Shown here: in pieces, positions 31,728 to 47,456 of the stretch
How the letters are laid out: every line of letters begins with the position of its first letter
How positions within the stretch are numbered: the first letter of the stretch is position 1
NCBI RefSeq assembly: GCF_900091455.1
Contig: NZ_LT607412.1
Span: 4,898,001-4,962,000 of the forward strand
Length of the DNA: 64,000 nt
From: Micromonospora coriariae
GTDB lineage: Bacteria > Actinomycetota > Actinomycetes > Mycobacteriales > Micromonosporaceae
Reading direction: 5' to 3'
Translations under genes and position numbers: made by a program
The notes under the pieces: model-generated
Database searches by the model: none
What the model was told of the DNA's origin: nothing
Seen by the model: the letters and a program-made list of their open reading frames with translations, nothing else

Positions 31728-31755
31728 TTGCCAAACCACGCCGAACCAATATAAT
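31728..31755 (+). promoter_or_regulatory. Strong sigma-70-like promoter of the catabolic operon
   Basis: TTGCCA at 31728, 16-bp spacer, TATAAT at 31750, 36 bp before the first ATG. This is close to consensus in otherwise GC-rich DNA. The same AACCAATATAAT block recurs before the transporter operon at 40971. Confidence 0.75.
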
Positions 31756-31791
31756 CAATCGCACCAAGGCGAGAGATTGACCGGAGGAGCG

Positions 31792-32637
31792 ATGGCGGAG
31801 ATCAGCGTGGCCCTGGCCGCGAGTCATGCACCCGGCCTGACGGGCTGGTTCGGGAAGGCGCCCGAGGAGGATCGAAGGACAGTGCGCGCCGCCTACGGCG
31901 CCATCCGCGACGCCATCGTCAACTCCCGGACTGACGTGCTGCTCATCATCGGCAACGACCACGTGGCGAATGCGCGGGTCAGTGACTATGCCGACTTCAG
32001 CTTCGGTATCGCCGACCGGCACACGGGTCCTGACGAATGGTTCAAACCCTGGCTGCGTGTCGACGACTACGACCTGCCTGGGGCGCCCGAGGTTGGTCGG
32101 ACGCTCCATGACAGTGTCCAAGCCACCGGCTTGCGGACCAGGGCCGTCCGGGACAACCTTCGGTTCGACGACAACATTTCCGTCCCGGTCGCGATGGCTG
32201 ACCTGACGTCGACCTCCGTGGCGCTGGTTCCGGTGCTGCAGAACTGCACCGTTCCGCCCGTGCCGAAAGAGCGCGCCTGCTACGCGTTCGGCGAGGCGCT
32301 GGGCGCGGCCATCCGGACGCAGTTGCCGGGGGATCTGCGCGTCGGACTCCTCGGTTCCGGAGGTTTGAGCCACGAGCCGGGTGGCCCTCGCTATCTGGAA
32401 ATCGACGAAAAGTTCGACCGGTGGTGGCTCGATCTCCTTGTCGAGGGGGACCACTCCAGGATTCTGGCGGAGGCGACCTTCGAGCGCATGGAGGAAGCCG
32501 GGTCCGGCGGCACCGCCGAACTGCTGTCCTGGCTTGTCGTCATGGGAGCCATTGGGCAACGTCCCTGCACGTCTCTGGGGTACGTCGCCGTTGAGGAGTG
32601 GCGCTGCGGCGTCGGTGCAGTCCAGTGGCAGTTGTAA
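31792..32637 (+). CDS. Class III extradiol dioxygenase, catalytic (LigB-type) subunit
   Basis: 281 aa from ATG 31792 behind GGAGGAGC. Fe(II) ligands match LigB numbering: His12 (ASHAPGL), His57 (IGNDH) and Glu243 (GTAELLSWLVVMG). The acid-base His lies in GSGGLSHEPGGP. LigB proteins cleave a ring carbon-carbon bond next to a catecholic (or o-aminophenolic) pair, usually on carboxylated rings such as protocatechuate, gallate or related compounds. It is the first gene of the island, 36 bp after a consensus promoter and followed by its small subunit. Cleavage position cannot be read directly; the decarboxylase two genes on suggests a carboxylated semialdehyde product. Confidence 0.85.
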   Translation: MAEISVALAASHAPGLTGWFGKAPEEDRRTVRAAYGAIRDAIVNSRTDVLLIIGNDHVANARVSDYADFSFGIADRHTGPDEWFKPWLRVDDYDLPGAPEVGRTLHDSVQATGLRTRAVRDNLRFDDNISVPVAMADLTSTSVALVPVLQNCTVPPVPKERACYAFGEALGAAIRTQLPGDLRVGLLGSGGLSHEPGGPRYLEIDEKFDRWWLDLLVEGDHSRILAEATFERMEEAGSGGTAELLSWLVVMGAIGQRPCTSLGYVAVEEWRCGVGAVQWQL

Positions 32638-32670
32638 CAGCAGCGCCGCTTCGACGGAAAGGATGACTTC

Positions 32671-32997
32671 ATGGGGCTTGAGCACTTCAACCCGCTCCTA
32701 CGCGCCAATGACCTCGTACAGGATCTCAAGTGGGACGACGAGTTGCGGGCCCGCTTCGAGACATCCGAGGAAGAGGTGCTGTCGTCGTACCCGATCACTG
32801 AGGACGAGCGGGAGGCGATTAGAGGCCGAGATTTCCGTCGGTTGTACGAGCTTGGCCTGCATCCTTACCTGCTTTCCCAGCTGGCACGGTTGATCTACGG
32901 AACAGGCGAGAAGGCCGGTACATCGGCCGCTGCGACCGCCTTGATCCAGTCCTTGCTCGGTGATGACTACGAGAGATACATGGCTGCTCGTGAGTGA
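32671..32997 (+). CDS. Class III extradiol dioxygenase, small (LigA-type) subunit
   Basis: 108 aa, ATG 32671, preceded by GAAAGGATG. An all-helical LigA fold is suggested by LRARFETSEEEVLSSYPITE, RGRDFRRLYELGLHPYLLSQ and LARLIYGTGE, the typical alpha-subunit core that caps the active site of the beta subunit. Separate alpha and beta genes in beta-alpha order fit LigAB-type heterotetramers. 33 bp after the catalytic subunit gene and 22 bp before the decarboxylase gene: one operon. Confidence 0.82.
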   Translation: MGLEHFNPLLRANDLVQDLKWDDELRARFETSEEEVLSSYPITEDEREAIRGRDFRRLYELGLHPYLLSQLARLIYGTGEKAGTSAAATALIQSLLGDDYERYMAARE

Positions 32998-33019: not shown

Positions 33020-34090
33020 ATGCAGCGGACGCCGATCATCGACGTGCACACCCACGCCCTGCCGATGCCGTTACTTCGCGACCTGGAGGCGTTAGGGCAT
33101 GCCGACCTTTCCGGCCTCGCCAATCGGGTGCTGAGGCTGGACTCCGCCATCAGCGGTCTGGCGCCCGGTGCGCCCATTCCGCTGCCGGCAGAGCAGTACG
33201 ACCTCGCCACGAGGCTGGCGTCGGTGACCGCAGCGGGCGTGGATTACCAGGCGGTCTCGCCCCCGCCCTTCACTTTCGCGTCCGAATCGACCGATGAGCG
33301 GCTCGTGATGGACATTACGCGACGGACGAACGACGCGGTGGCGGAGTTCGTCGCCGGGTCCGGCGGGCGCTTAGTGGGACTGGCAGCGCTGCCGGTGGGC
33401 TTTCCGGGTGCTGTCCAGGAACTTGCCCGCTGCCTGGATGAGTTGGGGTTCGTCGGGGCGACAATGGGCACCTTTGGTGGCGGTCGGGAGCTTGACGACC
33501 CACTGAACGAGGAACTGTGGAGTTCCCTCGCCTTCCGTCGGTGTTTCGTGCTGCTGCACCCCAGCCGGGCCTCGTCGCCCACCAGACTCGCGGATTACCA
33601 TTTGCTGCAGCTTCTCGGATATCCGGCCGAGACCGCTCTCGCGACGGCCCGGCTCGTCTTCGGCGGGGTGTTGGACCGGAATGACCTCATCCTCTGCCTG
33701 GCCCACGGCGGCGGCTGTCTGCCCGGCATTGGGGCTCGACTCGACCTGGGCTGGCACCGCAAGGCGGTGTCGCGGGTCATCCCATATCCGCCGACGCACT
33801 ACCTGCGCCGCCTGCGTTACGACACCGCGGTGTTCGACGCGAGCGTCCTGGCTCGACTCGTGGAAGACGTGACGCCCGCCAACGTGCTGTTGGGCACCGA
33901 CGCTCCATACGACCTGGCTGACCGCCAACCCTTGGCGACTGTGCGGACGCTCAAGATCGACACGTCCGAGCAGGACGCCATCCTGGGAGGTAATGCAGCC
34001 TCCCTGTTGCAGGGCATGTTCCGGGCGACGCATGGCGGTACGGCGGCCAGCGATACGTTGTCATACATCACTACGTCTCGACGGTCGTGA
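33020..34090 (+). CDS. Amidohydrolase-2 family decarboxylase (ACMSD/PraH-like)
   Basis: 356 aa from ATG 33020; GTG 32990 in frame is an alternative overlapping the small subunit gene. Metal ligands of the TIM barrel are visible: His10 and His12 in DVHTHALP, His in CFVLLHPSR, His in LCLAHGGGCLPG, Asp in VLLGTDAPYD. Relatives remove CO2 from ring-fission semialdehydes (2-amino-3-carboxymuconate semialdehyde in the nba pathway, 5-carboxy-2-hydroxymuconate semialdehyde in the pra pathway). The position after an extradiol dioxygenase supports that step. A strong hairpin lies after its stop. Confidence 0.82.
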   Translation: MQRTPIIDVHTHALPMPLLRDLEALGHADLSGLANRVLRLDSAISGLAPGAPIPLPAEQYDLATRLASVTAAGVDYQAVSPPPFTFASESTDERLVMDITRRTNDAVAEFVAGSGGRLVGLAALPVGFPGAVQELARCLDELGFVGATMGTFGGGRELDDPLNEELWSSLAFRRCFVLLHPSRASSPTRLADYHLLQLLGYPAETALATARLVFGGVLDRNDLILCLAHGGGCLPGIGARLDLGWHRKAVSRVIPYPPTHYLRRLRYDTAVFDASVLARLVEDVTPANVLLGTDAPYDLADRQPLATVRTLKIDTSEQDAILGGNAASLLQGMFRATHGGTAASDTLSYITTSRRS

Positions 34091-34167: not shown

Positions 34168-34854
34168 GTGAACATGATCGAGATCCCTAGGTCATCTCGG
34201 GCGGACGCGGTCGCCAATAGCATCGAGGAGCAAATCTCCACGCAGGGCTTGCCACCCGGGCACCGCCTCGGCACCAAGGAGAGTCTGCGTCGCGAGTATG
34301 ACGTAGCGGTCGCGACGTTCAACGAGGCAGTTCGACTGCTGAGCGCGCGGGGGACGATTGCCGTTCGTCCCGGTGTCAACGGAGGCATCTTCGTCGCTTC
34401 CCCAACGGCGCTGGTTCGGCTCGGGCGAAAAATGCTCGAACTCAGCGGCGAGTCAGTGTCGGTGGCCGACTGTCTGATGATGCGCGACGCGCTCGACCCG
34501 TTGGTGGTGCGGGAGGCGACGCGGCATCGCAACGCTCAGGACGTTCGCGAGCTGCGCAACATCGTGCGGGAGATGGCAGCTGCCGACCTGGCCATCGCGG
34601 AGTACCTGAGGATTAACTGGGCGCTGCATCGGCGGATGGCCGAGATCACGCCGAACCAGATTCTCCGGCACACGTACCTGTCTCTCCTGGCGTTCGTCGA
34701 GAGCCGGCTGCAGGGGGTGACGGCCGACGAGCCGGCCCGTGGGTCCACCGATGGTCCGCAGGTTCACGAAGAACTGGTGGAAGCCATCGCCAGCGGCGAC
34801 GTTGAGCGGGCCGATCGCGCCGCAAGTCGCCATACGACGTTGACCGCGAGCTGA
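34168..34854 (+). CDS. GntR-family (FadR/FCD) transcriptional regulator
   Basis: 228 aa from GTG 34168 (ATG 34174 possible). The winged helix (residues 12-75) has the GntR pattern LPPGHRLGTKESLRREYDV and VNGGIFV. The FCD ligand domain follows, with the metal-site-like DALDPLVVREATRHR and the two His around LHRRMAEIT and HEELVEAIASGD. It lies within the operon between decarboxylase and hydrolase genes, so it probably senses a pathway intermediate and controls the island promoters; direction (activator or repressor) is unknown. A second FCD regulator ends the island. Confidence 0.85.
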   Translation: MNMIEIPRSSRADAVANSIEEQISTQGLPPGHRLGTKESLRREYDVAVATFNEAVRLLSARGTIAVRPGVNGGIFVASPTALVRLGRKMLELSGESVSVADCLMMRDALDPLVVREATRHRNAQDVRELRNIVREMAAADLAIAEYLRINWALHRRMAEITPNQILRHTYLSLLAFVESRLQGVTADEPARGSTDGPQVHEELVEAIASGDVERADRAASRHTTLTAS

Positions 34855-34875
34855 CGAAAGCACTAGGTGAGCAGC

Positions 34876-35520
34876 ATGGTAGGCACCGACACCGACCCGA
34901 CCGGCGTTGCGTTGGTGGTCGTCGATGTACAGAACGACTATTGCCACCCGGATGGCGTGTTCGCCAGCGCCGGATTGCGGGTCGAGGAGCCGCAGCAGCT
35001 GGTCGAGCAGATCAATGTGTTGGTTCACGCGGCGCGTGCGGCGGGGCGACCGGTCATCTGGGTACGGATGGAGTGGCCCGACGATGCAAGCGTGGGGCTG
35101 CTCGCCGAGCGCAGCCCTTTCCTGCGGACGCAGGGGCTTCGCGAGGGCACGTGGGGCAGCGAACTGCTCGACGGGCTCGACCATGAACCGGGCGACCCAG
35201 TCGTGGTCAAGCCGCGGTTCAGTGCCTTCCACCAAACGATCCTGCAGGACGTTCTCCGGCAGCTGGCGGTGGGCACCATCGTCGTGGCGGGAGTGCGCAC
35301 GGACTTCTGTATCGAGTCGACAGTGCGGGACGCGTTCTTCCGGGACCTGCGGGTGGTCGTGGCCGAGGAAGCCGTCGCCGGGTACTTCAACGAGCTGCAC
35401 CGTAACAGCCTGCGCGTGATGGGCACGGTGTTCGCCCAGGTGGTCCAGTTGGCTGTGGCGGCCGACGTGCTGGCTGGCGGCCCACTCGACACGGCGCCGG
35501 CCGCGAAGGCCCCGTCATGA
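34876..35520 (+). CDS. Isochorismatase-fold cysteine hydrolase
   Basis: 214 aa from ATG 34876; GTG 34867 is upstream in frame. The catalytic triad is intact: Asp17 (LVVVDVQNDY), Lys in VVKPRFSAFHQ, Cys in VRTDFCIEST, with the cis-peptide motif before it. Members hydrolyse C-N bonds (nicotinamide, maleamate, ureidoacrylate, N-carbamoylsarcosine) or the isochorismate ether. In an aromatic-ring pathway this suggests removal of an amide or carbamoyl nitrogen from substrate or ring-fission product. Follows the regulator by 21 bp; its stop overlaps an alternative start of the next gene. Confidence 0.83.
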   Translation: MVGTDTDPTGVALVVVDVQNDYCHPDGVFASAGLRVEEPQQLVEQINVLVHAARAAGRPVIWVRMEWPDDASVGLLAERSPFLRTQGLREGTWGSELLDGLDHEPGDPVVVKPRFSAFHQTILQDVLRQLAVGTIVVAGVRTDFCIESTVRDAFFRDLRVVVAEEAVAGYFNELHRNSLRVMGTVFAQVVQLAVAADVLAGGPLDTAPAAKAPS

Positions 35521-35564
35521 ACGCGAGGGTCCACACCAGAACTAAGCAACCAGGAGGATACGCC

Positions 35565-36359
35565 GTGCGCGAGGTAGACCGAGCGACGGCCGCCGATCTG
35601 CTGGTCGAGGCCCGTCGGCTGCATCAGCCTATTAATTCGCTCACCGAACGGTTCCCCGACCTGACCGTCGAGGACGCATACGAGATCCAGGCGCGGCAAA
35701 GCCAGCAGCGGCTGGACTCCGGGCGGGTGATCAAGGGCCGGAAGGTGGGACTCACCTCCGCCGCGATGCAACGTCAGTTGGGTGTGAACTCGCCGGACTT
35801 CGGCGTGCTGTTCGACGACATGTTCTTCCCCGAACACGAACCCATCGCGCCCGCGCTGTTCCTTCAGCCGCGTATCGAGCCGGAGGTGGCGTTCGTCCTC
35901 AAGCGGGACCTCCAAGGCCCCGGGATCACCGTGGCCGACGCGATCCGAGCGGTCGATTTCGTGTTGCCGGCCCTGGAGATCATCGACAGCCGGATCGCCG
36001 ACTGGCGAATCACCATCGCCGACACCATCGCTGACAACGCCTCCTCCGGCGGGGTCGTGCTGGGTGGCTCGCCCGCCCGGTTGGCCGACGTGGACCTCCG
36101 TCTGATGGGCGGCAACTTGTTCGGCAACGGCGACCTCGTCGCCACCGGCGCCGGCGGCGCTGTGCTGGGCTCACCCCTGCTGTCCCTGGTCTGGTTGGCC
36201 AACACCCTCGGCGATCGGAACGCGGGGCTGCGCGCGGGCGATGTCGTGTTGCCCGGATCGATCACCAGCGCCCAGCCGGTCCGACCCGGTGACACTTGGT
36301 CCGCGCACTTCGCCGGGCTGGGCTCAGTCACCACGTGCTTCGCGAAGGAGGCGAGATGA
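35565..36359 (+). CDS. 2-oxopent-4-enoate hydratase (MhpD/XylJ type)
   Basis: 264 aa from GTG 35565, which has AGGAGG 8 bp upstream; ATG 35517 (ATGA overlap) gives a 16-aa longer form. Fumarylacetoacetase-like fold: [20 protein letters not shown] and [14 protein letters not shown] carry the metal-binding Glu residues (EPE), plus [12 protein letters not shown]. The hydratase adds water to 2-hydroxypenta-2,4-dienoate to give 4-hydroxy-2-oxovalerate. The second paralogue at 38296 is closer to decarboxylases, so I assign hydratase here; the two roles could be exchanged. Confidence 0.8.
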
Positions 36360-37255
36360 CCAGGCCCATCGCGGCCATCGTCGGTCCCGGGAACATCGGC
36401 ACCGATCTGCTGATCAAGTTGCAGCGCAGCCCGCACCTCGACGTGCGGTACATGGTGGGGGTGGACCCGAACTCCGACGGTCTGGCCAAGGCAAGGGCCC
36501 GCGGCGTGGAGACCTCGGCCGAAGGCGTTGACTGGCTGCTCGCCAGGCCGGAGCCGGCACAGTTGGTCTTCGAGGCCACCAGCGCCAAGGCGCACCTGGC
36601 GAACGCCCCGCGCTACGCGGAGGCCGGCATCCAGGCGGTGGACCTGACACCTGCCATGGTAGGGCCGCTGGTGTGTCCGGTGGTGAACCTGCACGAGCAC
36701 TTGGCCGCGCCGAACGTGAACATGGTGACCTGCGGGGGGCAGGCGACCATCCCGATGGTTGCCGCGGTGGCCTCGGTGACGCCGGTTCCGTACGCCGAGA
36801 TCGTGGCGTCGATCGCGTCCCGTTCGGCCGGTCCCGGCACCCGCGCCAACATTGATGAGTTTACCGAGACGACCTCGCTGGCGTTGCGCGAGGTCGCCGG
36901 TGCCGGGCGAGGCAAGGCCGTGATCATCCTGAATCCGGTCGAGCCGCCGATGATCATGCGGGACACCGTTTTCTGTGCCATCCACCCGGACGCCGATCGC
37001 GACGCGATCACCGCATCCGTGCTCGCCATGGTGGAGCGAGTCCGGGAGTACGTCCCGGGCTACACCCTGCGGGCCGATCCGCAGTACGACGAGCCGCGTC
37101 CGGGCTGGGCGGGCAACGCCCGCGTCGCGCTGTTTCTGGAGGTCCGCGGTAACGGCGACTACCTGCCGCCGTACGCGGGCAACCTCGACATCATGACGGC
37201 CGCCGCCGCCCGCGTCGGTGACCTCATGGCCCAGGCGAAGGCGGTGGCGGCGTGA
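36356..37255 (+). CDS. mhpF: Acetaldehyde dehydrogenase (acylating)
   Basis: 299 aa, ATG 36356 overlapping the hydratase stop (ATGA). Rossmann start [16 protein letters not shown], catalytic Cys in [14 protein letters not shown], and the [19 protein letters not shown] end are diagnostic of MhpF/DmpF. It oxidises acetaldehyde with CoA and NAD+ to acetyl-CoA. It forms a channelling complex with the aldolase encoded directly after (GTGA overlap). Together they finish the meta-cleavage pathway in the cytoplasm. Confidence 0.93.
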
Positions 37256-38289
37256 CGACTACGGACCCGGGCGCGGTACGCATCACGGACTCGACGTTGC
37301 GGGACGGGTCGCACGCGATGGCTCACCAGTTCACCGAGGGGCAGGTCCGGGCCACGGTGCACGCCCTGGACGCCGCCGGTGTGCAGGTTATCGAGGTGGC
37401 ACACGGCGACGGTCTCGGTGGATCCACATTCAACTACGGCTTTTCCCGCACCGACGAAATTCGGCTCATCGAGGCCGCGGTAGACGAAGCCACCAGGGCC
37501 AGGATTGCTGTCCTGCTGCTGCCTGGTCTCGGCACTGTGGAGGACCTTCGACACGCACACGGCGTTGGTGCCTCGGTAGCGCGCATCGCCACCCACTGCA
37601 CGGAGGCGGACGTCTCGGTGCAGCACTTCGGCGCCGCCCGCGAGCTCGGCATGGAGACCGTCGGTTTCCTGATGCTGTCGCACCGGGCCAGCCCCAGTGT
37701 GCTGGCGAAGCAGGCCCGGATCATGGTCGACGCGGGGGCGCAGTGCGTTTACGTTGTCGACTCCGCCGGTGCACTGGTGCTCGGTGACGCACAGGCCCGG
37801 ATCGCGGCGCTGGTCGACGAGATCGGGGCCGAGGCCCAGGTCGGCTTCCACGGCCACCAGAACCTCTCGCTGGGGGTGGCCAACTCCGTTCTCGCCTACC
37901 AGACGGGCGCCCGGCAGATCGACGGCGCGCTCTGTGCCCTTGGCGCGGGCGCCGGTAACGCCCCGACCGAGGTTCTCAGTGCGGTGTTCGAGCGCCTGGG
38001 GGTGCCTACCGGCGTCGATGCGCAAGGCGTCGCGGCGGCGGCGGAAGACGTGGTAAAACCCTTCATCCCGCGACTGCCATGGATGGATCGTGCAGCGATC
38101 GTGCAGGGCTATGCCGGCGTTTATTCCAGCTTCTTGCTGCACGCCGAGCGGGCCGCCGAGAGGTACGGCGTCCCGGCTCACGAAATCCTCGAGCGAGTCG
38201 GTGCGGCGGGCTACGTGGGCGGGCAAGAGGACATGATCATCGACATCGCGTTGGAGCTCGCAGAGGCACGCGAGCGGCGCCAGGGGTAG
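37252..38289 (+). CDS. mhpE: 4-hydroxy-2-oxovalerate aldolase
   Basis: 345 aa from GTG 37252, overlapping the preceding stop. HMGL-like TIM barrel with [18 protein letters not shown] (Mn-ligand Asp and catalytic Arg) and [15 protein letters not shown] (two metal His), then the DmpG communication domain ([20 protein letters not shown]). It splits 4-hydroxy-2-oxovalerate into pyruvate and acetaldehyde, passing the latter to MhpF. Full length for the family. Confidence 0.93.
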
Positions 38290-38295: not shown

Positions 38296-39081
38296 ATGAT
38301 GGGTGACTGGGACGTACAGCGCGCGGCGAGCACGCTCCTTGAAGCCGAGCACACGAGGACCGATCGCCCGCCGATCACCGACGAGTGGCCGGAGTTGGAC
38401 CTGGCCACCGCCTATGCGATCCAAGATGAGACGCTGGCCCGCCGGCTGGCTCGGGGTGAACACCTGATCGGCGTCAAGCTGGGGTTGACCTCCCGAGCGA
38501 AGCAGCAGCGGATGGGAATCTCTTCGCCGCTGGTCGCGTGGCTGACCGACGCTATGGTGCTTCCGGCCGGGGCGCCAGTGCCGCAGGACCAACTGATCCA
38601 CCCTCGCGCCGAACCGGAGATCGTCTTCGTGATGGCCCAGCGGCTGGCCGGGCCCGGCGTGACGGCCGCGACCGCGATGTCCGCGGTGGGCGCGGTGCTC
38701 GGCGGTGTGGAGATCATCGACTCCCGGTACACCGACTTCCGCTTCACCCTGCCCGACGTCGTCGCGGATAACGCCTCGTCCGGCTGCTACGTCACTGGCC
38801 CGGTCAGCCGGCCGCCGACCATCCTGGACCTGTCCATGGAGGCTGTCGTCCTCGAGGTCGACGGAGAGGTGGTCGATTCGGCTACCGGCGGGGCCGTCCA
38901 GGGGCATCCGGCGGAGGCGCTGGCGCTCGCGGCCAACGCACTCGCCGAACGGGGTCTGGCCATCGAGGCTGGCTGGGTCGTACTCACCGGTGGCATGACC
39001 GACGCGGTCTTCGCGCCACCCGGATCCCGGTTGGCGGCGCACTTCAGCACGCTCGGCTCGATCGTCCTGAGCGGAGGCTGA
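38296..39081 (+). CDS. xylI: 2-oxo-3-hexenedioate (4-oxalocrotonate) decarboxylase
   Basis: 261 aa, ATG 38296 (a second ATG follows directly). ITDEWPELDLATAYAIQDE, LIGVKLGLTSRAKQQRMGI and LIHPRAEPEIVFVMA (metal Glu pair) are characteristic of XylI/DmpH. It decarboxylates the 2-oxo-3-hexenedioate made by the tautomerase, giving the substrate of the hydratase, with which it normally forms a complex. Separated by 6 bp from the aldolase gene and touching the tautomerase gene. Confidence 0.87.
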   Translation: MMGDWDVQRAASTLLEAEHTRTDRPPITDEWPELDLATAYAIQDETLARRLARGEHLIGVKLGLTSRAKQQRMGISSPLVAWLTDAMVLPAGAPVPQDQLIHPRAEPEIVFVMAQRLAGPGVTAATAMSAVGAVLGGVEIIDSRYTDFRFTLPDVVADNASSGCYVTGPVSRPPTILDLSMEAVVLEVDGEVVDSATGGAVQGHPAEALALAANALAERGLAIEAGWVVLTGGMTDAVFAPPGSRLAAHFSTLGSIVLSGG

Positions 39082-39283: not shown

Positions 39284-40714
39284 ATGGAACTGATCCCCCA
39301 CATCATCGACGGCAAGGAAATCGAGTCCCGCGACGGCGGCGAGTTCGAGACCGTGGATCCGTGGACCCGGCAGGCCTTCGCCCGGGTCGCACTCGGCACT
39401 GCCGAGGATGCCGGCCTGGCCGTCGAGGCTGCTCGAAGGGCCTTCGACCGTGGGCCGTGGCCCCGGATGGGCTTCGCCGAGCGCGGCGCCGCCCTGCACC
39501 GGTTGGCCGACCTCATCGACGAGCACCGCGACGAGTTGGCCTTGGCCGACACCCGGGACATGGGTAAGCCGATTTCGGACAGCACGTCAAAGGATGTGCC
39601 GCGTTCGGCGATGAACTTCCGGTTTTTCGCCGACCACGCTCGGCTGTCCGCAGGCGAGGCTCTGCCGATGGACAGCGGGCACCACGCCTACACCCGGTAT
39701 GAGCCGGCCGGGGTTGTCTCCGCGATCGCGCCGTGGAACTTCCCGCTCATGCTCGAGTCCTGGAAGGTCGCTCCGGCGTTGGCCTGGGGCAACACGGTCG
39801 TCCTGAAGCCTGCCGAGGGCACACCGACGTCCGCCACGCTGCTGGCCCGCCTTGCGCTCGAGGCCGGCATACCGCCCGGAGTGTTCAACGTCGTCCACGG
39901 ATTCGGCCCCGATTCCGCCGGCGAGGCGCTGACCAAGGACCCGCGGGTCGACCGGATCACCTTCACCGGCGAGTCCACCACCGGGCGGGTGCTGTCCAGG
40001 GCGGCCGCGGCAAACCTCACGCCCGTGAGCCTGGAACTGGGCGGCAAGGGCGCCAACCTCGTCTTCGCCGACGCCGACCTGGAGTCGGCGGTGCGCTGGT
40101 CGATCCAAGCCATCTTCAGCAACGCGGGGCAGGTGTGTCTGGCCGGGAGCCGGATCTACGTGCAGCGCGAGGTCTATGCCGAATTTCTCGACCGCTTCTG
40201 CGCCGCCGCAGAAGCCCTCGTCATCGGTGACCCCAAGGATCGCCGCACGCAGGTCGGGCCGCTGTCGTCCGGCGAGCACTATCAGAAGGTCCGTTCGTAC
40301 GTCGAGGGCGTTCCTGCCGAGGGCGGCATTATGCGGACCGGCGGCTTCGGTGACGGCTGGGTGGTGCGCCCGACCGTCATCACCGATGTTCCCGCGGATG
40401 CCCGGGTCTGCCGGGAGGAGATCTTCGGACCCGTGGTCGTGGTCGCGCCATTCGACACCGAAGCCGAGGCGGTGTCGTCGGCCAACGCGACGCCGTACGG
40501 GCTCAACGCCATGGTTTTCACGGAAAACCTGTCCCGGGCGCACCGGGTCGCCGCAGCGCTACGTGCCGGCACGGTATGGACGAACTGCTTCTTCATCCGC
40601 GACCTGCGCGCCCCGTTCGGTGGGGTTGGCGATTCGGGCGTGGGGCGCGAGGGCGGCAACTTCAGTCGCGACTTCTTCACCGAACCGAAGGCCGTGGTGA
40701 TGGAACTGCGCTGA
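39284..40714 (+). CDS. xylG: 2-hydroxy(or amino)muconic semialdehyde dehydrogenase
   Basis: 476 aa from ATG 39284 (GTG 39278 overlaps the preceding stop). Aldehyde dehydrogenase fold: AIAPWNFPLML, VVLKPAEGTPTSATLLA, catalytic Glu in PVSLELGGKGANLVF, nucleophilic Cys in FSNAGQVCLAGSR, and the C-terminal PFGGVGDSGVGREGG. In this operon it should oxidise the decarboxylated ring-fission semialdehyde to muconate. Hydroxy versus amino preference (XylG/PraB or NbaE) cannot be decided by eye. Last gene of the enzyme block. Confidence 0.85.
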   Translation: MELIPHIIDGKEIESRDGGEFETVDPWTRQAFARVALGTAEDAGLAVEAARRAFDRGPWPRMGFAERGAALHRLADLIDEHRDELALADTRDMGKPISDSTSKDVPRSAMNFRFFADHARLSAGEALPMDSGHHAYTRYEPAGVVSAIAPWNFPLMLESWKVAPALAWGNTVVLKPAEGTPTSATLLARLALEAGIPPGVFNVVHGFGPDSAGEALTKDPRVDRITFTGESTTGRVLSRAAAANLTPVSLELGGKGANLVFADADLESAVRWSIQAIFSNAGQVCLAGSRIYVQREVYAEFLDRFCAAAEALVIGDPKDRRTQVGPLSSGEHYQKVRSYVEGVPAEGGIMRTGGFGDGWVVRPTVITDVPADARVCREEIFGPVVVVAPFDTEAEAVSSANATPYGLNAMVFTENLSRAHRVAAALRAGTVWTNCFFIRDLRAPFGGVGDSGVGREGGNFSRDFFTEPKAVVMELR

Positions 40715-41051
40715 CGGCCTGCGTACACGGGCGCCCTTCAGCGTTAACCGCTCGCGACTCCGTCGCTGCCACAGATCTGAAGATCGGACGTTCTCGAATC
40801 GGCGTGGGCGGGCTACGCCGACCGAGTCTGCCTGGGCAGATTCGAAGCACCAGGTTCCGCTCAATTCGCGGCGCAAAAGGCGTTCCGTGTTGGTTCCGCC
40901 GCCTTCGTCGGCCCTGCGGAAACGGCCTCTGGGCTGCGATGACAAGCTCGCACCCCTTGCCTGGGGCAACATAACCAATATAATGATTCGGGTCACGTGT
41001 GAACCCGGGCAGGTTGCGGCGGGGGCCGACAACCAGACAGGAGACAAGGCC
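40715..41051. other. 337-bp intergenic region between enzyme and transporter blocks
   Basis: No convincing ORF. It holds the promoter at 40957-40984; no clear terminator was found for the upstream operon. Confidence 0.6.
40957..40984 (+). promoter_or_regulatory. Strong sigma-70-like promoter of the transporter operon
   Basis: TTGCCT at 40957, 16-bp spacer, TATAAT at 40979. The block AACCAATATAAT and the following N-A-T-T/A-TCG are shared with the promoter at 31728, implying common regulation of uptake and degradation. Confidence 0.75.
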
Positions 41052-42020
41052 ATGCGGAAGCAGAAATGGTTCGCATCGCTCGCGGTGGCAAGTGTCGTCG
41101 CTACCACGGCTTGCGGCAGCGGCGGCGACGAGGCGAGTGGGGGTGACCAGGCGGTGAAGATCGACGTCGGTGGGCTCCCGCTGGCCGCGCTGGCACCGCT
41201 GTACCTCGGCATTGACAAGGGCTTCTTCGCTGACGAGGGCCTTGAGGTGACCCCGCAGCAGGCCCAGGGCGGCGCGGCGTTACTGCCGGCCGTCGTCAGC
41301 GGAGACATGGAGTTCGCCTACTCGAACACCGCCTCTCTCATCACGGCAAGCGTCAAAGGACTGCCGGTCCAGATCGTCGCGAACGGCAATGACGAGACCC
41401 ATGACGTCAAGAAGGCGTCGTCGACGGTCGTGTCCAAGGGCGGCGGACCCATCCGCCAGCCGGCCGACCTGGCGGGCAAGACGATAGCGGTCAACACGCT
41501 CAACAACGTCGGTGACATTACGATCAAGGCAGCACTGGAGAAGTCCGGTGTGGACGTCAGTGGACTCAAGTTCGTCGAGCTGCCGTTTCCGGACATGCTT
41601 CCTGCCCTCGAAGCCGGGCGGGTGGACGCGGTCTGGCTGGTAACCCCCTTCACCCAGACCGCGAAGGACGCCGGCCACCAGGAAGTGCTCCGGCCCTTCT
41701 TTGACACCCAGCCGGGGTTGAACATCGCCACCTACTTCACCTCCCAGCGTTACGCGAAGGAGCACCCGGACGTCGTGGCCGGGTTCGTCCGGGCGATGAA
41801 CAAGTCACTGACGTACACCAATGACCACCCGGACGAACTGCGCGCCGCGGTCAAGACGTACGCCAAGATTCCCGATGACGTGCTGGGCAAGATGCCGCTG
41901 CCGGAGTTCCCGGCGGAAATCGACGTCCCAGACATCGAGTTGACCGCCGAGCTGATGCGTAAATACGGCATCATCGACAAGCTGCCGGACTTCAAGCGCC
42001 TGGTCAGGCAGGGCGCATGA
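41052..42020 (+). CDS. ABC transporter substrate-binding lipoprotein (NMT1/SsuA type)
   Basis: 322 aa from ATG 41052, with AGGAGACA upstream. A lipoprotein signal peptide ends in the lipobox TTAC before Gly-Ser-Gly, so the protein is anchored outside the membrane. LPLAALAPLYLGIDKGFFAD and GGAALLPAVVSGDMEFAYSN match NMT1/THI5/SsuA-like binding proteins. Such systems carry sulfonates, pyrimidine precursors, nitrate or aromatic acids including phthalates. Placement among aromatic-degradation genes favours an aromatic or heteroaromatic acid. ATGA overlap with the permease gene. Confidence 0.85.
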   Translation: MRKQKWFASLAVASVVATTACGSGGDEASGGDQAVKIDVGGLPLAALAPLYLGIDKGFFADEGLEVTPQQAQGGAALLPAVVSGDMEFAYSNTASLITASVKGLPVQIVANGNDETHDVKKASSTVVSKGGGPIRQPADLAGKTIAVNTLNNVGDITIKAALEKSGVDVSGLKFVELPFPDMLPALEAGRVDAVWLVTPFTQTAKDAGHQEVLRPFFDTQPGLNIATYFTSQRYAKEHPDVVAGFVRAMNKSLTYTNDHPDELRAAVKTYAKIPDDVLGKMPLPEFPAEIDVPDIELTAELMRKYGIIDKLPDFKRLVRQGA

Positions 42021-42805
42021 GGCGCGTCCGATCGCTACCTTGGTGGGTGCCGGGGTGCCTCAGCGTTGCGCTCGTCCTGGCGCTCTTCGAAACCCTGTCC
42101 CGGACGGGGATCCTGCCCAGCCGCTACTTTCCGCCGATGTCCTCGACGTTGGCGCGACTGGTGACCGAGGGTGGCGACACGAGCTTCTGGGTCGAGGTCG
42201 GGCACACCATGCAAGGCTGGGTGATCGGGATCGGCCTCGCCTTCGCGGTCGCGGTGCCGCTCGGCATCGCGATTGGATCGGCATGGTGGATCTTCCGGGC
42301 ATTGCGGCCGATCATCGAATTTCTCCGACCGGTGCCGTCGGTGGCGCTCATCCCGCTTGCCGTCCTGATCTACGGCTCCGGCCTGGAGACGAAGGTGTTC
42401 CTGGTTACCTACGCCGCCGTGTGGCCGCTGCTGCTCCAGCTGCTCTACGGCGTGCGCAGCATCGACCCGATCGCGCTGGACACCGCGCGTTCCTTCCGGG
42501 TAAGCCGGTGGAACCGACTAACGCGAATTGTGCTGCCAAGCATCGTGCCCTACCTCGCCACCGGGCTCCGGATCTCCTCGTCCGTCGCGCTCGTCCTGGC
42601 CGTGACCGCGGAGCTGGTCGTGGGCGCGCCCGGTATCGGCCGCACGATCACTGCTGCGCAGGCCGGCGGAAACGTCGAGCTGATGTACGCGCTCATCATC
42701 GCGACCGGGCTACTCGGATGGGGGCTGAACATCGTGTTTCGACAAGCGGAACGGCGACTTCTGCACTGGCATCCCTCCCAGCGCATGCTGGCGGCAAGCC
42801 GATGA
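42017..42805 (+). CDS. ABC transporter permease (SsuC type), first
   Basis: 262 aa, ATG 42017. Six hydrophobic helices; the EAA loop that docks the ATPase reads DTARSFRVSRWNRLTRIVLP. Start overlaps the binding-protein stop, and the second permease overlaps its end (ATGA). Two different permeases imply a heterodimeric channel, unlike the homodimer typical of SsuC. Confidence 0.87.
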   Translation: MRRVRSLPWWVPGCLSVALVLALFETLSRTGILPSRYFPPMSSTLARLVTEGGDTSFWVEVGHTMQGWVIGIGLAFAVAVPLGIAIGSAWWIFRALRPIIEFLRPVPSVALIPLAVLIYGSGLETKVFLVTYAAVWPLLLQLLYGVRSIDPIALDTARSFRVSRWNRLTRIVLPSIVPYLATGLRISSSVALVLAVTAELVVGAPGIGRTITAAQAGGNVELMYALIIATGLLGWGLNIVFRQAERRLLHWHPSQRMLAASR

Positions 42806-43572
42806 GCCGCCGCATCCTCGGCCCACTGGTCGAGATCACATTCCCGCTCGTGGTGCTGCTCGGCCTCGTCGTGTGGTCCAGCGGCAGCGAATCCTTCTAC
42901 TTTCCACCGGTCACCGACATTTTCGTCACCTTCCGGGAGACCTGGCTGTTCGAGCGCTTTGGCTCCGACGTCGTACCGAGCCTCTACCGCCTGGGCGCCG
43001 GCTACGCCCTCGCGTGTTTGCTCGCGGTGGGTGTCGGCGTCATCCTCGGGTCCTCGAAGGTGGCGGCTCGCGCGGCCGAGCCGATCGTCGAGTTCCTGCG
43101 GGCGGTCCCGCCGCCGGCCCTGATTCCCTTCGGTATCCTCGTGCTCGGGCTGGGCGACCAGATGAAGATCTTCATCATCGCCATGGTCTGCTTCTGGCCG
43201 GTGCTGCTCAACACCATCGACGGCATCCGCGGTATCGACCCCACTCTACTGGACACCGCGCGGGCGTACGGGATCCGCGGCTTCGAGCGCCTGCGTAGCC
43301 TCGTGCTTCCCGGCGCCAGTCCGCAGATCTTCGCGGGCATGCGGACCAGCCTGTCCCTCGCCCTCATCATGATGGTTGTCTCCGAACTGGTGGCCAGCAC
43401 CAACGGCATCGGCTACTTCGTACTGCAATCTCAGCGCAACTTCGCGATCCCGGAGATGTGGTCCGGGATCGTGCTGCTTGGCCTCTTGGGCTATCTGTTG
43501 AACGCCGTCTTCCTCCTGGTGGAGCACCGTGTCCTCGCCTGGCACCTGCGAGCGAGCGCGGTGACCCGGTGA
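42802..43572 (+). CDS. ABC transporter permease (SsuC type), second
   Basis: 256 aa, ATG 42802. Six predicted helices and an EAA loop reading DTARAYGIRGFERLRSLVLP. Paralogous to the preceding gene (both have EFLRPVPSVALIP or EFLRAVPPPALIP just before the loop). Forms the membrane channel with it and the ATPase that follows after 27 bp. Confidence 0.87.
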   Translation: MSRRILGPLVEITFPLVVLLGLVVWSSGSESFYFPPVTDIFVTFRETWLFERFGSDVVPSLYRLGAGYALACLLAVGVGVILGSSKVAARAAEPIVEFLRAVPPPALIPFGILVLGLGDQMKIFIIAMVCFWPVLLNTIDGIRGIDPTLLDTARAYGIRGFERLRSLVLPGASPQIFAGMRTSLSLALIMMVVSELVASTNGIGYFVLQSQRNFAIPEMWSGIVLLGLLGYLLNAVFLLVEHRVLAWHLRASAVTR

Positions 43573-43599: not shown

Positions 43600-44373
43600 A
43601 TGCTTGATGTGGTCGGTCTGAAGAAGACCTACGGGGAAGGCAACGCAGCAACCACCGCCATTGGCGACCTGTCCTTCAGCGTTGGCAAGGGCGAGTTCGT
43701 CTGTGTCGTCGGGCCATCCGGTTGCGGCAAGACGACGTTGCTCAAGTGCATGTCCGGTCTGCTGTCCGCGACCGCCGGGCAGGTCCTGTTGCAGGGCCAG
43801 CCGATCGACGGCCCGCCCGAGCAGATGGCGCTCGTCTTCCAGGACTACAGCCGCTCACTGATGCCCTGGTTGACCGTCCGCGGCAACATCGCGCTGCCGC
43901 TCAAGAGTCGCCGGCTTACCAGGACCGACCGCGCCCAACGCATCGCCGAGGCGGTCGAGTCAGTGGGGCTCGCCAGCTTCATCGACCACTACCCGTGGCA
44001 ACTCTCCGGCGGCATGCAGCAGCGGGTCGCCATCGCCCGCGCCCTCGCCTACCAGCCCGACATTCTCCTGATGGACGAGCCGTTCGCGTCCCTGGACGCG
44101 CAGACCCGCGCGGACTTGGAGGATGTGATGCTGAGCGTGCGGGACAAGTACGACGTGACGGTGCTCTTCGTAACTCACGACATCGACGAGTCGGTGTACC
44201 TGGCGGATCGGATCGTCGTCCTCAGCTCGCGGCCCACCTACGTCAAGGAGATCGTCGAGGTCGGCCTGCCCCGCCCGCGCGACCAGGTAAGCACGAAGGA
44301 GCAGCCGGAGTTCGCGCATCTGCGGGCACACATTTACCGGGCGATTAAACACGCGACGCCGGAGGCCGCGTAG
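43600..44373 (+). CDS. ABC transporter ATP-binding protein (SsuB type)
   Basis: 257 aa from ATG 43600, preceded by GGAGCGGGAG. Walker A GPSGCGKTT, Q-loop VFQDYSRSLMPWLTV, signature LSGGMQQRVAIARAL, Walker B LLMDEPFASLD and switch His in VTHDIDES are all intact. It powers uptake through the two permeases. Its stop lies inside the first unit of a 21-bp tandem repeat that also contains the next start. Confidence 0.92.
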   Translation: MLDVVGLKKTYGEGNAATTAIGDLSFSVGKGEFVCVVGPSGCGKTTLLKCMSGLLSATAGQVLLQGQPIDGPPEQMALVFQDYSRSLMPWLTVRGNIALPLKSRRLTRTDRAQRIAEAVESVGLASFIDHYPWQLSGGMQQRVAIARALAYQPDILLMDEPFASLDAQTRADLEDVMLSVRDKYDVTVLFVTHDIDESVYLADRIVVLSSRPTYVKEIVEVGLPRPRDQVSTKEQPEFAHLRAHIYRAIKHATPEAA

Positions 44374-44432
44374 CCATGAGCAAGGAACAAGTAACCACCA
44401 GCAAGGAACGGGTAGCCATGAGCAAGGATTCC
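44370..44432 (+). repeat. Three 21-bp tandem units duplicating a start codon
   Basis: Units GTAGCCATGAGCAAGGAAC.., GTAACCACCAGCAAGGAAC.. and GTAGCCATGAGCAAGGATT.. follow one another. Units 1 and 3 each carry ATGAGCAAGG, so the cyclase gene has two equivalent starts (44376, 44418); unit 2 has ACC in place of ATG. Confidence 0.85.
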
Positions 44433-45239
44433 GACGAAACGCCTCCGGTCATCGGCATCTTCCAGGAGGTCGTACGGCTGGGCGAGGTGCTCGATCTATC
44501 GCACGAGATCTCCTCGTCGACTCCGGTGTTCCCGTTCCACGCGCCGTACTCGCTCGCCCTGCATCGGCGCCACGGGGACACGGTGCGCCCCGGAAACGCC
44601 AGTTTCGCCAACGAGGTCCTCATCATGCCCGGCCACCTGTCCACGCACATCGACGCGCTGGGGCACTTCTCCAAGGAAGGGCTGGTCTACGGGGACGTCT
44701 CGGCGAAGGATATCGAGACGCATGATGGCCTCAATGCGCTGGACATCTCGATCACACCGCCGATCTGGCGACGAGGGGTGCTGCTCGACGTCGCCAGGCT
44801 GCGCGGCGTGGACTGCATGGAGGTGGGCGACGGCATCGACGACGAAGACCTTGCCGCCTGCGAGCGAGCGACCGGTGTGACCGTACGGGAGGATGACGTC
44901 GTCGTCATCCGGACCGGTTGGTCCCGCCACTGGCTCGACCGGGATCGTTTCAACGGGCTCGACGGCGGCTATCCCGGCGTCACGCCAGACGGGGCCAGGT
45001 GGCTGATCGACCGGAAGGTGGCCATGGTCGCCTCGGACACGCCCGCGTTCGAGGTGGCCCCGTCCACCGGGGTCTCCGTGCACGCCATGTTGCTGGTGGA
45101 CAACGCGATCAACATCCTGGAGAACCTGAACCTGGAGGAGGTGTCCGCCCGGCGCGTCAGCCAGTTTCTCTTCGTCGGCCTACCGCTGCGCCTAGTCGGT
45201 GCGACCGCGTCTCCGCTGCGCCCGATCGCGGTCGTCTGA
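44376..45239 (+). CDS. Cyclase / kynurenine-formamidase-like metal hydrolase
   Basis: 287 aa from ATG 44376, or 273 aa from ATG 44418 in the repeat. The metal motif of the cyclase (PF04199) family is present as GHLSTHIDALGHF, with supporting LDLSHEISSSTPVFPF near the start and VVIRTGW later. Relatives hydrolyse N-formylkynurenine, isatin or other amide/lactam bonds. In this island it could open a cyclic amide or remove an N-acyl group before ring cleavage. Soluble enzyme; 2 bp before the next gene. Confidence 0.8.
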   Translation: MSKEQVTTSKERVAMSKDSDETPPVIGIFQEVVRLGEVLDLSHEISSSTPVFPFHAPYSLALHRRHGDTVRPGNASFANEVLIMPGHLSTHIDALGHFSKEGLVYGDVSAKDIETHDGLNALDISITPPIWRRGVLLDVARLRGVDCMEVGDGIDDEDLAACERATGVTVREDDVVVIRTGWSRHWLDRDRFNGLDGGYPGVTPDGARWLIDRKVAMVASDTPAFEVAPSTGVSVHAMLLVDNAINILENLNLEEVSARRVSQFLFVGLPLRLVGATASPLRPIAVV

Positions 45240-45241
45240 GC

Positions 45242-46759
45242 ATGGTGAAGCCCGCCGCGACCGGCCTGTTGCTCGCCGGCGGGCTGGTCGACCTCGGCGC
45301 CGGCCGGTTCGAGCGTGCCGACGTGCGGGTACGTGACAGCCGTATCGAGACGGTCGGCGCTCTGTCGCCCGAACCGGGCGAGAACTGTCTCGACGCTCGG
45401 CGCCGGATCATCGTCCCTGGCCTGGTCAACGCCCACACGCACTCCAATGAGGCGTGGCTGCGAGCGCGGTTCGACAACCTGCCGTTGGAAACGTGGCTAG
45501 TGCACGCCTACCCGGTGGGCGCGGTTCGGCAGACGCCCGACGAGGTTTACCTGCGCACCGCGCTGGTGGCTGCGGAGCAGCTCCGCTGCGGCACCACCAG
45601 CGTGGTGGACTGCCTGTACGAGCCCGGGGGCGCCACCGTCGACTCCCTCGCCGCGGTCGTGCGCGCCTATCGGGACACCGGTATCCGGGCGCTGATCTGT
45701 CTGGCGCTGGCCGATCGCCCCCCGCGGTTCGACCGAGCCGCGGTCGAGCCGGTCGACCTCGTTGTGCTCGACGAATTTCGGCCAGCGCCGGCGGCGGCAC
45801 AAGTGGAGTCGGCGCTGGCGCTCGCCGAGCGCTTTCACCGCCCGGCCGAGGGCATCTCGATCGGGCTGGCCCCGGCCGGAATCCACCGGTGCGGCGACGA
45901 GTTGCTCCAGCGCGCCGCAGCCACCGGACTGGACCTGCATGTCCACCTGGCCGAGACACGGCCCCAGGCGGCGGACGCCGCGGCAACGGGCAGATCGTTG
46001 GTACGCCGGGCCGTCGACCTCGAGTTCCTCGGACCGCGCGTACATCTCTCGCATGCGGTGTGGCTGTCGCCGCAGGACATCGGCTGGCTGGCCGCCTCGG
46101 GCGCGACAGTCGTGCACAACCCTGTGTCGAATCTCAAGTTCGGCAGCGGACTGGCGCCCGTACCGGAGCTGCTACGGCACGGCGTGCCAGTGGCGCTCGG
46201 CACGGACGGGGTCTGCTCGGCCGACGGTCAGGATCTCCTCCAAGCGGTCAAGCTCGCCGCCCTGCTGCATAAGGGATCCGGCGATCCAGCCGGCTGGCTG
46301 GGCGCCGCCGAGGCCTGGCACATGGCGACGGAGGCTGGCGCGCGCCCGGCCGGTGATCCGGAGGGCATCGGCCGGGTGGCATCAGGTCGGCGTGCCGATT
46401 TGACGCTCTTCGACCTCGATCACCCAGCGTTCCTGCCGTTCGGCGACCCGTTGTTGCACCTGGCGCTTGGCGCGCCTACCAGTGCGGTCAGCGAGGTCCT
46501 GGTCGGCGGCCGGCTGGTGTTGGCCGGTGGAACGCTGACCGGGCTTGACGAACGGGTACTGCGCCACGAGGCGCGGCTAGCGGCCGCAGCGGTCGAGGGC
46601 CGTAACGCACCTGCGCGGGCCCTTGCCGGTCGCCTAGCGCCGGCCGCCGAGGCGTACCGGCAGGCGACCGAGCGGCAGGCACTCGCCATCGACCGTTCTC
46701 TGCTTGGCGGGCCGGGCGAACATATCGCCGAATGCGACGGTGCCGAGCATCATGAGTGA
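45242..46759 (+). CDS. Amidohydrolase, deaminase/chlorohydrolase (TrzA/SsnA) type
   Basis: 505 aa, ATG 45242. Metal site: two His in VNAHTHSNEAWLR, His in DLHVHLAETRPQ, His in RVHLSHAVWLS, Asp in VALGTDGVCSADG. NLPLETWL is typical of TrzA/AtzA/SsnA-like enzymes that hydrolyse C-N or C-Cl bonds on heterocycles (guanine, cytosine, triazines). Here it may deaminate the aromatic or heteroaromatic substrate. Somewhat long at the C-terminus (extra Ala/Arg-rich helix). Its last codons overlap the following regulator start. Confidence 0.82.
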   Translation: MVKPAATGLLLAGGLVDLGAGRFERADVRVRDSRIETVGALSPEPGENCLDARRRIIVPGLVNAHTHSNEAWLRARFDNLPLETWLVHAYPVGAVRQTPDEVYLRTALVAAEQLRCGTTSVVDCLYEPGGATVDSLAAVVRAYRDTGIRALICLALADRPPRFDRAAVEPVDLVVLDEFRPAPAAAQVESALALAERFHRPAEGISIGLAPAGIHRCGDELLQRAAATGLDLHVHLAETRPQAADAAATGRSLVRRAVDLEFLGPRVHLSHAVWLSPQDIGWLAASGATVVHNPVSNLKFGSGLAPVPELLRHGVPVALGTDGVCSADGQDLLQAVKLAALLHKGSGDPAGWLGAAEAWHMATEAGARPAGDPEGIGRVASGRRADLTLFDLDHPAFLPFGDPLLHLALGAPTSAVSEVLVGGRLVLAGGTLTGLDERVLRHEARLAAAAVEGRNAPARALAGRLAPAAEAYRQATERQALAIDRSLLGGPGEHIAECDGAEHHE

Positions 46760-47456
46760 CCACAGGCCACTGCGGGAGGCCGACAACGGCCACGCCGCCG
46801 ACGTTGCCTACTGTCTGATCCGAGAGCAGATCCTGGCCGGTCAACGGTCGGCCGGTGAGTGGCTCCGTGAGGCCGAGTTGGCCGAGTCGATCGGGGTGAG
46901 CCGCACCCCCGTCCGGGAGGCGCTCAGACGGCTGACGGCCGAGGGGCTGGTCCGCCACGAACGGAACCGTGGCGTGCAGGTCCAGGCATGGAGCATCCAC
47001 GATCTCGACGAAATCTTCAGCCTGCGGTCCGTGCTTGAGCCGTGGGGCTGCCGGTTGGTCGCCACCACGGGCACCATCGACGTGGACGCGCTCGACGCGC
47101 TGGCCCACCAGATGGACGAGGTCGCGCCGGACGGGCGACCGACCGATGTGGACGAGCTAATTGCATTGAACAACCGGTTCCACCGGATGATCCTCGAGGC
47201 GTCTGACAACAGGCGACTGGCCGGTGTCGTCTCGTCGATGATCCAGATGCCGCTCGTTTGGCGCACCTTCTCCCGCTACAGCCCCGACGCGCTGCGCCGC
47301 AGCCTCGCTCACCACCACGAACTGGTCGCGGCTCTGGCCGCGCCCGACCCCGATTGGGCGGAGTCGGTCATGCGCAGCCACGTACGCGCGGCATGGCATT
47401 CCATCCGACGGCGAGAAGGCCGAGAGCAACCGCCTGGCCGGGAACTGCCGAACTAG
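46752..47456 (+). CDS. GntR-family (FCD) transcriptional regulator, second
   Basis: 234 aa from ATG 46752, which lies inside the end of the amidohydrolase gene. GntR winged helix (LREAELAESIGVSRTPVREA, VQVQAWS) and FCD domain with DELIALNNRFHRMILEAS and LAHHHELVAAL. The 8-bp overlap ties its synthesis to the hydrolase. With two FCD regulators, the island may respond to two compounds, for example the imported substrate and a ring-fission intermediate. Confidence 0.87.
   Translation: MSDHRPLREADNGHAADVAYCLIREQILAGQRSAGEWLREAELAESIGVSRTPVREALRRLTAEGLVRHERNRGVQVQAWSIHDLDEIFSLRSVLEPWGCRLVATTGTIDVDALDALAHQMDEVAPDGRPTDVDELIALNNRFHRMILEASDNRRLAGVVSSMIQMPLVWRTFSRYSPDALRRSLAHHHELVAALAAPDPDWAESVMRSHVRAAWHSIRRREGREQPPGRELPN

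Follow-up and report, generated by a model that had tools for sequence, protein, structure and literature searches.

Among the described routes for the meta-cleavage of carboxylated catechols, the opa cluster for 2,3-dihydroxybenzoate (23DHB) in PTH10 comprises, according to the available portion of its report, a 23DHB dioxygenase, OpaD (30% identical to NbaD), a 2-hydroxymuconic semialdehyde (HMS) dehydrogenase, a tautomerase, a decarboxylase, a hydratase, an aldolase and an acetaldehyde dehydrogenase (PMC6362003). The same portion describes an NbaD/PraH-related decarboxylase that makes HMS, which then enters the lower enzymes, and a hydrolytic branch through OpaH (PMC6362003). Here we analyzed a 64,000-nucleotide stretch ("the window"; contig NZ_LT607412.1, positions 4,898,001 to 4,962,000) of the 6.93-Mb, single-contig genome of Micromonospora coriariae, which carries at 31792-47456 an island of aromatic meta-cleavage genes built around a LigAB-type dioxygenase.

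Open reading frame (ORF) calls, Pfam and NCBIfam identified 18 intact genes in the island, all on the plus strand. The first-pass annotation had described seventeen consecutive unbroken genes from position 31728; the unbroken, single-strand arrangement stands, but the count is 18 and the most likely start of ligB is the ATG at 31792. The eighteenth gene encodes the tautomerase and sits between those for the 4-oxalocrotonate decarboxylase and the aldehyde dehydrogenase (ALDH). Every gene function named in that annotation was found by Pfam and NCBIfam, and its remark that the set includes no ring hydroxylase holds for all 18 genes. The genes are likely arranged in two transcription units with a gap of 337 bp between them, 31792-40714 with 11 genes and 41052-47456 with seven.

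The best reading of the locus, in which our confidence and our doubt are evenly balanced, is that of a horizontally acquired, self-contained island for the uptake of an amide- or lactam-bearing catechol carboxylate and its meta-cleavage via HMS. The ABC importer would take in an aromatic compound that is already o-dihydroxylated and bears a carboxyl group, most likely in amide- or lactam-masked form, and the cyclase, TrzA-like and RutB-like hydrolases would break its C-N bonds. Judging from enzyme family and synteny, LigAB would then open the ring beside the diol to give a carboxylated HMS, from which the ACMSD-like enzyme would remove the carboxyl group. The ALDH, tautomerase, 4-oxalocrotonate decarboxylase, hydratase, aldolase and acetaldehyde dehydrogenase, all recognized at the level of their families, would convert HMS to pyruvate, acetyl-CoA and CO2. 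A GntR/FCD protein is the probable regulator of both units, acting through a shared AT-rich site as its putative operator. Since the importer and the C-N hydrolases share this operator-like site with LigAB and no hydroxylase was recognized, the substrate is probably encountered already dihydroxylated and nitrogen-bound.

The LigB residues H12, H57, E243 and H194, which we take to be two histidine and one glutamate iron ligands plus an active-site histidine, were invariant across 25 aligned homologues, and judged by sequence the LigB/LigA pair belongs to the class III (LigAB-type) extradiol dioxygenases. The solved structures closest to the island LigB are protocatechuate and gallate dioxygenases; those closest to the island decarboxylase are ACMSDs. 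In the alignment, the decarboxylase keeps the ACMSD metal ligands His9, His11, His177, Asp294 and His228, as well as Arg239; His9 is replaced by Gln in five alphaproteobacterial relatives, and three further rows are unaligned at that position. At the column of ACMSD Arg51, presumably a substrate-binding residue, the island enzyme has Ile, and Arg is present in the ACMSD of the kynurenine operon of the same genome and in none of the 30 other rows.

All six families of the HMS pathway (ALDH, 4-oxalocrotonate tautomerase, 4-oxalocrotonate decarboxylase, hydratase, aldolase and acylating acetaldehyde dehydrogenase) are encoded in the island. The tautomerase contains Pro1, Arg11 and Arg39, which we take to be its known functional positions, and no RidA-type deaminase was detected among the 18 genes. 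From the roles of these families, we assume that a 2-hydroxymuconate route needs a tautomerase and a 2-aminomuconate route a RidA deaminase. This bears on the idea of a route of the aminophenol type, for compounds such as 3-hydroxyanthranilate or 4-amino-3-hydroxybenzoate, in which the RutB-like protein would serve as an unusual 2-aminomuconate deaminase. The kinship of the decarboxylase to ACMSDs would suit such a route, as would relatives in which RidA accompanies an ACMSD-like gene (loci L018 and L019) or HAAO-like and RidA-like genes stand together (L037 and L070). We nevertheless judge it decidedly improbable because the island has a tautomerase and no RidA, Arg51 is lost, and the genome has a separate kynurenine/3-hydroxyanthranilate operon; for the same reasons, LigAB more likely acts on a carboxylated catechol.

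The separate operon (L098:412-10984, at about 3.98 Mb of contig C1) leads from kynurenine to 3-hydroxyanthranilate and includes a whole lower pathway. Its kynureninase, HAAO and HMS-type dehydrogenase score over their cut-offs, TDO reaches 304.9 bits (cut-off 390.7), a RidA-like gene was recognized by eye, and the ACMSD homologue is 38% identical to the island decarboxylase. Kynurenine degradation was rejected as the main explanation of the island because the genome has this TDO-kynureninase-HAAO-ACMSD operon elsewhere. A second LigA/LigB-like pair, 28% identical to the island LigB, lies at L099:6820-11604 (C1, about 5.69 Mb), with TRZ/ATZ-like amidohydrolase, citrate-synthase-like, CoA-transferase-like, ALDH and IclR-like genes as neighbors, mostly assigned by eye.

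Scanning genome contigs with profile A1 brought up 170 stretches that encode a relative, and the analysis continued with the best 80 loci. The window, L003-L017 and L073 constitute a group of 17 loci in which LigB is 65-81% identical; the next-nearest loci, L018 and L019 (LigB 59-61%, Solirubrobacterales), were left out of it. The search for the same gene set across genomes, which the first-pass annotation had proposed, recovered a core of ligB, the ACMSD-like gene, GntR/FCD regulator 1 and the RutB-like gene in the window and in 14 of the 16 nearest loci (15/17), but the accessory hydrolases vary between relatives. Because this core is conserved in other genera, the gene set goes beyond chance. 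Among the carriers are Streptomyces aculeolatus (L010) and Actinomadura livida (L007). The exceptions are L004, truncated where its contig ends, and L005, whose examined stretch has no decarboxylase gene. The RutB-like gene lies near ligB in 16 of the 17 loci (not in L004), on the opposite strand together with the GntR gene in L017 and in swapped order with it in L015. The gene for LigA was called in 16 loci; that of L014 was missed by the gene finder and recovered by tblastn. Within the stretches examined, 10 of the 17 loci carry the tautomerase, 11 an ALDH and 11 the binding protein; none has RidA. A creatininase-family gene occurs in nine, directly before ligB in seven, and the window has the cyclase and TrzA-like genes in its place. 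No ring hydroxylase was recognized among the neighbor genes of the group, inspected by eye and in part with hidden Markov models (HMMs). In L011 (Nocardia), the core is followed by an alpha/beta hydrolase gene whose best matches, below cut-offs, are meta-cleavage-product hydrolases; the 19 kb examined contain no tautomerase, and an ALDH with 36% identity is encoded 6.6 kb upstream. This hydrolase may provide a hydrolytic branch, as OpaH does in the portion of the opa description at hand.

For the RutB-like protein, alignment to RutB (8bkd) revealed an Asp-Lys-Cys triad, to which we ascribe catalytic roles; a motif pattern for this triad was passed by 10 of 26 relatives, was too strict and was not used. 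Linkage of the TrzA-like and cyclase genes to LigB was examined through equal lengths of the carrying contigs, an indirect sign of one contig, against 200 shifted controls. Among the matches listed, TrzA-like (49) and LigB (118) homologues shared at least seven lengths (controls: mean 0.31, maximum 3), cyclase (120) and LigB (118) homologues at least six (controls: mean 1.08, maximum 5), and TrzA-like and cyclase homologues none. One shared length (21,615) joins LigB P0004 (80%) with cyclase P0174 (79%).

Two AT-rich operator-like sites, one ahead of each unit, suggest by footprinting that the genes for import and ring cleavage form a single dedicated regulon. The repeat finder pairs 31744-31761 with 40973-40990, and a pattern derived from the window found two copies in the whole genome at up to three mismatches, both in the island; there was no third site at this threshold, hence no ring hydroxylase under the same site. 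Loose patterns yielded little across the loci until a consensus was built from the relatives: the palindrome CTATTGAATATATTCAATAG was suggested by AT-rich sites that precede their ligB, importer or 4-oxalocrotonate-decarboxylase-like genes. A site with up to six mismatches to it was present in 11 of 18 loci (the group of 17 and L100); in ten of these it precedes a gene of the core or of the importer unit, and in L015 an MFS gene nearby. Per locus, 20 block shuffles gave minima of 6 to 9 mismatches. The second site of the window has eight mismatches to this palindrome and is recognized solely by its likeness to the first. With up to three mismatches, the palindrome occurred at one place each in six of 14 related genomes, always at the LigAB cluster, and nowhere in the control; the consensus was drawn from the same loci, and the genomes of L008, L017 and L100 were left out. 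In L011 a better-matching site stands before another gene. At L011:14128-14147 (Nocardia abscessus), an operator-like site precedes an old-yellow-enzyme-like gene (assigned by eye) downstream of the core.

The LigB tree comprised 80 entries (the loci, the window and four added loci, one of them an outgroup; four entries were labeled by hand). The RutB-like gene was found in 27 of these and a formamidase in 30, without overlap (hypergeometric P about 7e-8, overstated since the entries are related); creatininase (20/80) and formamidase did not overlap either, and ACMSD-type genes (30/80) overlapped with formamidase once, in L019. Of 78 loci, 52 had one of the two amidases no more than 5.5 kb from ligB, none had both and 26 had neither. 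Some loci of the formamidase group have hydantoinase A/B and an alpha/beta hydrolase in the position of the decarboxylase route. Relatives exchange cyclic-amide hydrolases of the creatininase, hydantoinase AB, cyclase and TrzA/YtcJ types, and amide or lactam hydrolases recur near LigAB in much of the tree. A hydantoinase A/B-LigBA-formamidase unit with aldolase and acetaldehyde dehydrogenase was also observed on the Corynebacterium glutamicum plasmid p48A (L083), with recombinase genes nearby.

This recurrence bears on a simpler explanation, namely a plain protocatechuate (2,3-cleavage) or 2,3-dihydroxybenzoate pathway, with the three hydrolases hitch-hiking or serving another compound. The enzyme set equals that of opa and pra, as far as their reports are at hand, except for the ring-cleavage family, and since the genome has a single intradiol match (PF00775), such a route need not be redundant. 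The RutB-like gene, however, accompanies ligB in nearly the whole group and also follows LigAB in Bosea, the homologues of LigB and TrzA share lengths of carrying contigs, and amide and lactam hydrolases recur around LigAB even if a third of the loci have neither amidase nearby; we therefore regard a plain pathway as unlikely, though worth keeping in mind. Alternatively, LigAB may cleave a nitrogen-bearing or nitrogen-containing ring, with the amide product then hydrolyzed by the RutB-like protein (by formamidase in relatives). The amidase often directly follows the dioxygenase genes, as ligBA-fmdA in many loci of the formamidase group and as LigAB-RutB-like in Bosea and L005, and the mutual exclusion of the two amidases would fit as well. 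Such cleavage would leave the carbocyclic HMS-pathway ALDH and tautomerase of the same unit without a clear role, and the closest solved relatives of LigB act on protocatechuate and gallate, so that we consider it quite improbable.

Returning to the amide- or lactam-bearing catechol carboxylate, we propose tentatively, and with more doubt than belief, that an undescribed catabolic module spanning phyla is centered on the LigAB of this clade and serves a common imported natural compound in which a catechol (or nitrogen-bearing diol) ring is joined to a cyclic amide. The dioxygenase would be its constant part, and the ring-hydrolyzing (creatininase, hydantoinase AB, cyclase, TrzA/YtcJ/allantoinase) and amide-hydrolyzing (RutB-like/formamidase) partners would be swapped. 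The binding protein and LigAB are tractable targets with which the food molecule can be screened directly, and naming the substrate would reveal a hidden flux through nitrogen-containing aromatics in Actinomycetota and Pseudomonadota.

Several observations weigh against the main reading, the uptake of an amide- or lactam-bearing catechol carboxylate and its cleavage via HMS. Both the substrate and the sequence in which the hydrolases act are proposals drawn from gene content. Only two of the six lower-pathway enzymes score over curated cut-offs; the hydratase, 4-oxalocrotonate decarboxylase, tautomerase and ALDH fall below them, so that their exact substrate assignments are provisional. Aldolase and acetaldehyde dehydrogenase were present in the examined stretch of four of the 17 group loci, and L005 departs from the core as noted above. 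L100, from genome G081 of the same genus, encodes after the core an FAH-family protein and an MMSDH, with no HMS pathway. RidA is found with the ACMSD-like gene in L018 and L019, in L019 together with a tautomerase, and L018 additionally encodes a protein like type I extradiol enzymes. In L037:5-950 (labels from clustering alone) and L070:8087-9055 (HMM matches, both below cut-offs), genes for an HAAO-like cupin and a RidA-like protein stand near LigAB and an ACMSD-like gene. These deviating loci may indicate that members of the clade degrade several related compounds, including aminophenolic ones. The link between cyclase and LigB is weak, weaker than that between TrzA and LigB. The operator-like pattern was drawn from the window itself and its backward control also gave one match at up to three mismatches, and L003, L008, L010, L012, L017, L073 and L100 have a weak site or none.

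The GC content of the island is 67.3%, against 69.7 and 69.4% in the window flanks and 71-75% in other sampled parts of the genome; at third codon positions it rises from 0.84 for the island to 0.89 for the flanks and 0.94 for the kynurenine locus. Profile A1 (E<=1e-60) matched two of 151 genomes of the genus, the own genome included, the other being G081 with a divergent version of the core, and in the class sample it matched the own genome alone among 394. This contrast and rarity fit a horizontal acquisition of the island. Insertion sequence (IS) elements are present on either side; a composite transposon is not supported, as the two IS481-like genes match at only 44-45%, in two segments of some 150 aa each, and a search for long direct repeats common to both flanks found none. 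The flanks, in which annotation covered some ORFs, mostly at 20.7-31.6 and 47.8-54.9 kb, had been described as decayed: several relics and IS genes bear this out, but the formate dehydrogenase alpha and NuoEF-like genes look intact and apparently form an NAD-linked formate dehydrogenase. Rfam and tRNA scans gave no match. The left flank also encodes, at 23143-24012 (plus strand), a DUF2231 membrane protein with a Rieske ferredoxin-type domain, by its domains not a ring hydroxylase, and farther left, at 18737-19483 (minus strand), lies an intradiol-dioxygenase-like match (PF00775, 37 bits, cut-off 27.3), the sole one found in the genome.

Table 1. Features of the island and its flanks (window coordinates)
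Feature	Position	Strand	Score or remark
Truncated ABC ATPase	21753-22130		relic
Truncated IS3	22214-22780		relic
IS5 transposase	26210-27178		over its cut-off
IS481-like integrase, shortened	30737-31579		relic
AT-rich operator-like site ahead of ligB	31742..31761	+	CGAACCAATATAATCAATCG
ligB, class III extradiol dioxygenase catalytic subunit (predicted)	31792..32637	+	PF02900, 95.6 bits
ligA, small subunit	32671..32997	+	PF07746, 40.7 bits
ACMSD-like decarboxylase (Amidohydro_2)	33020..34090	+	
GntR/FCD regulator 1	34168..34854	+	conserved-core member
Isochorismatase-fold cysteine amidohydrolase, RutB-like	34867..35520	+	
2-Oxopent-4-enoate hydratase (DmpE-like)	35517..36359	+	269 bits, cut-off 409
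Acetaldehyde dehydrogenase, acylating	36356..37255	+	436 bits, over cut-off
4-Hydroxy-2-oxovalerate aldolase	37252..38289	+	472 bits, over cut-off
4-Oxalocrotonate decarboxylase (DmpH-like)	38296..39081	+	251 bits, cut-off 351
4-Oxalocrotonate tautomerase, 64 aa	39087..39281	+	59.6 bits, cut-off 86
2-Hydroxymuconic-semialdehyde-dehydrogenase-like ALDH	39284..40714	+	524 bits, cut-off 693
Second operator-like copy, ahead of importer unit	40971..40990	+	ATAACCAATATAATGATTCG
NMT1/SsuA-type substrate-binding protein	41052..42020	+	
ABC permease 1	42017..42805	+	
ABC permease 2	42802..43572	+	
ABC ATPase	43600..44373	+	
"Cyclase" family hydrolase (PF04199)	44376..45239	+	distant kin: isatin hydrolase, kynurenine formamidase
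TrzA/AtzA-like amidohydrolase	45242..46759	+	
GntR/FCD regulator 2	46740..47456	+	
IS481-like gene	47851-48948		below its cut-off
Formate dehydrogenase alpha and fused NuoEF-like gene	49353-53705	-	alpha over cut-off; look intact
TrkH/KefC-like fragment	54147-54920		relic

No description of this gene set was found among the matches listed in the open-access literature, in agreement with the first-pass annotation, which knew of no such described pathway; the core itself recurs elsewhere. The annotation had also assigned the order of reactions to pra or nba logic; the meta-cleavage order of a carboxylated catechol is retained, and the nba-like aminophenol option is disfavored. The 3-hydroxyanthranilate (kyn/nba) pathway contains ACMSD, and its nba deaminase, like AmnD, belongs to the Rid family; this deaminase has no counterpart in the island, which has a tautomerase instead. 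Protocatechuate 4,5-dioxygenase LigAB (PDB 1b4u/1bou) is alike in its LigB family, with a LigB score of only 77.6 bits and aligned iron-ligand and active-site positions, whereas the downstream genes of the island are not of the 4,5-cleavage (oxalomesaconate) type. PydA is annotated as LigB-family in the available part of an Arthrobacter paper (PMC7356986). A 3,4-dihydroxypyridine (mimosine/4-hydroxypyridine) reading of the island was rejected, as its carbocyclic lower pathway speaks against it; the rejection does not extend to the formamidase group.

The amn pathway for 2-aminophenol in Burkholderia xenovorans LB400 resembles the island in its extradiol enzyme AmnBA and its lower pathway, and the part of its report at hand lists AmnD, a 2-aminomuconate deaminase, together with AmnJ, which contains a YjgF (Rid) domain (PMC3790839); the island has neither and carries a tautomerase instead. 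The pra pathway of Paenibacillus sp. JJ-1b shares with the island the meta-cleavage of a carboxylated catechol (protocatechuate 2,3-cleavage), the PraH decarboxylase and the HMS lower pathway (PMC12455638, PMC6362003); the gene string praRABEGFDCHI, as printed in the accessible text, includes the 4-hydroxybenzoate hydroxylase praI and has no importer or amidohydrolase genes (PMC12455638). With opa, as described in the excerpt of its report, the island shares the reactions from ring cleavage through acetaldehyde dehydrogenase in one cluster. OpaC, compared by that description, resembles the type I enzyme DhbA, whereas the island LigB is by sequence of class III; opa further has a Rieske ring hydroxylase, a diol dehydrogenase and a TRAP-transporter-like gene (PMC6362003), and the island lacks a hydroxylase and has instead an ABC importer of the NMT1 type, GntR regulators and three C-N hydrolases. 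We regard the island as a variant of HMS meta-cleavage, in which the chemistry after decarboxylation is textbook and the entry steps are not.

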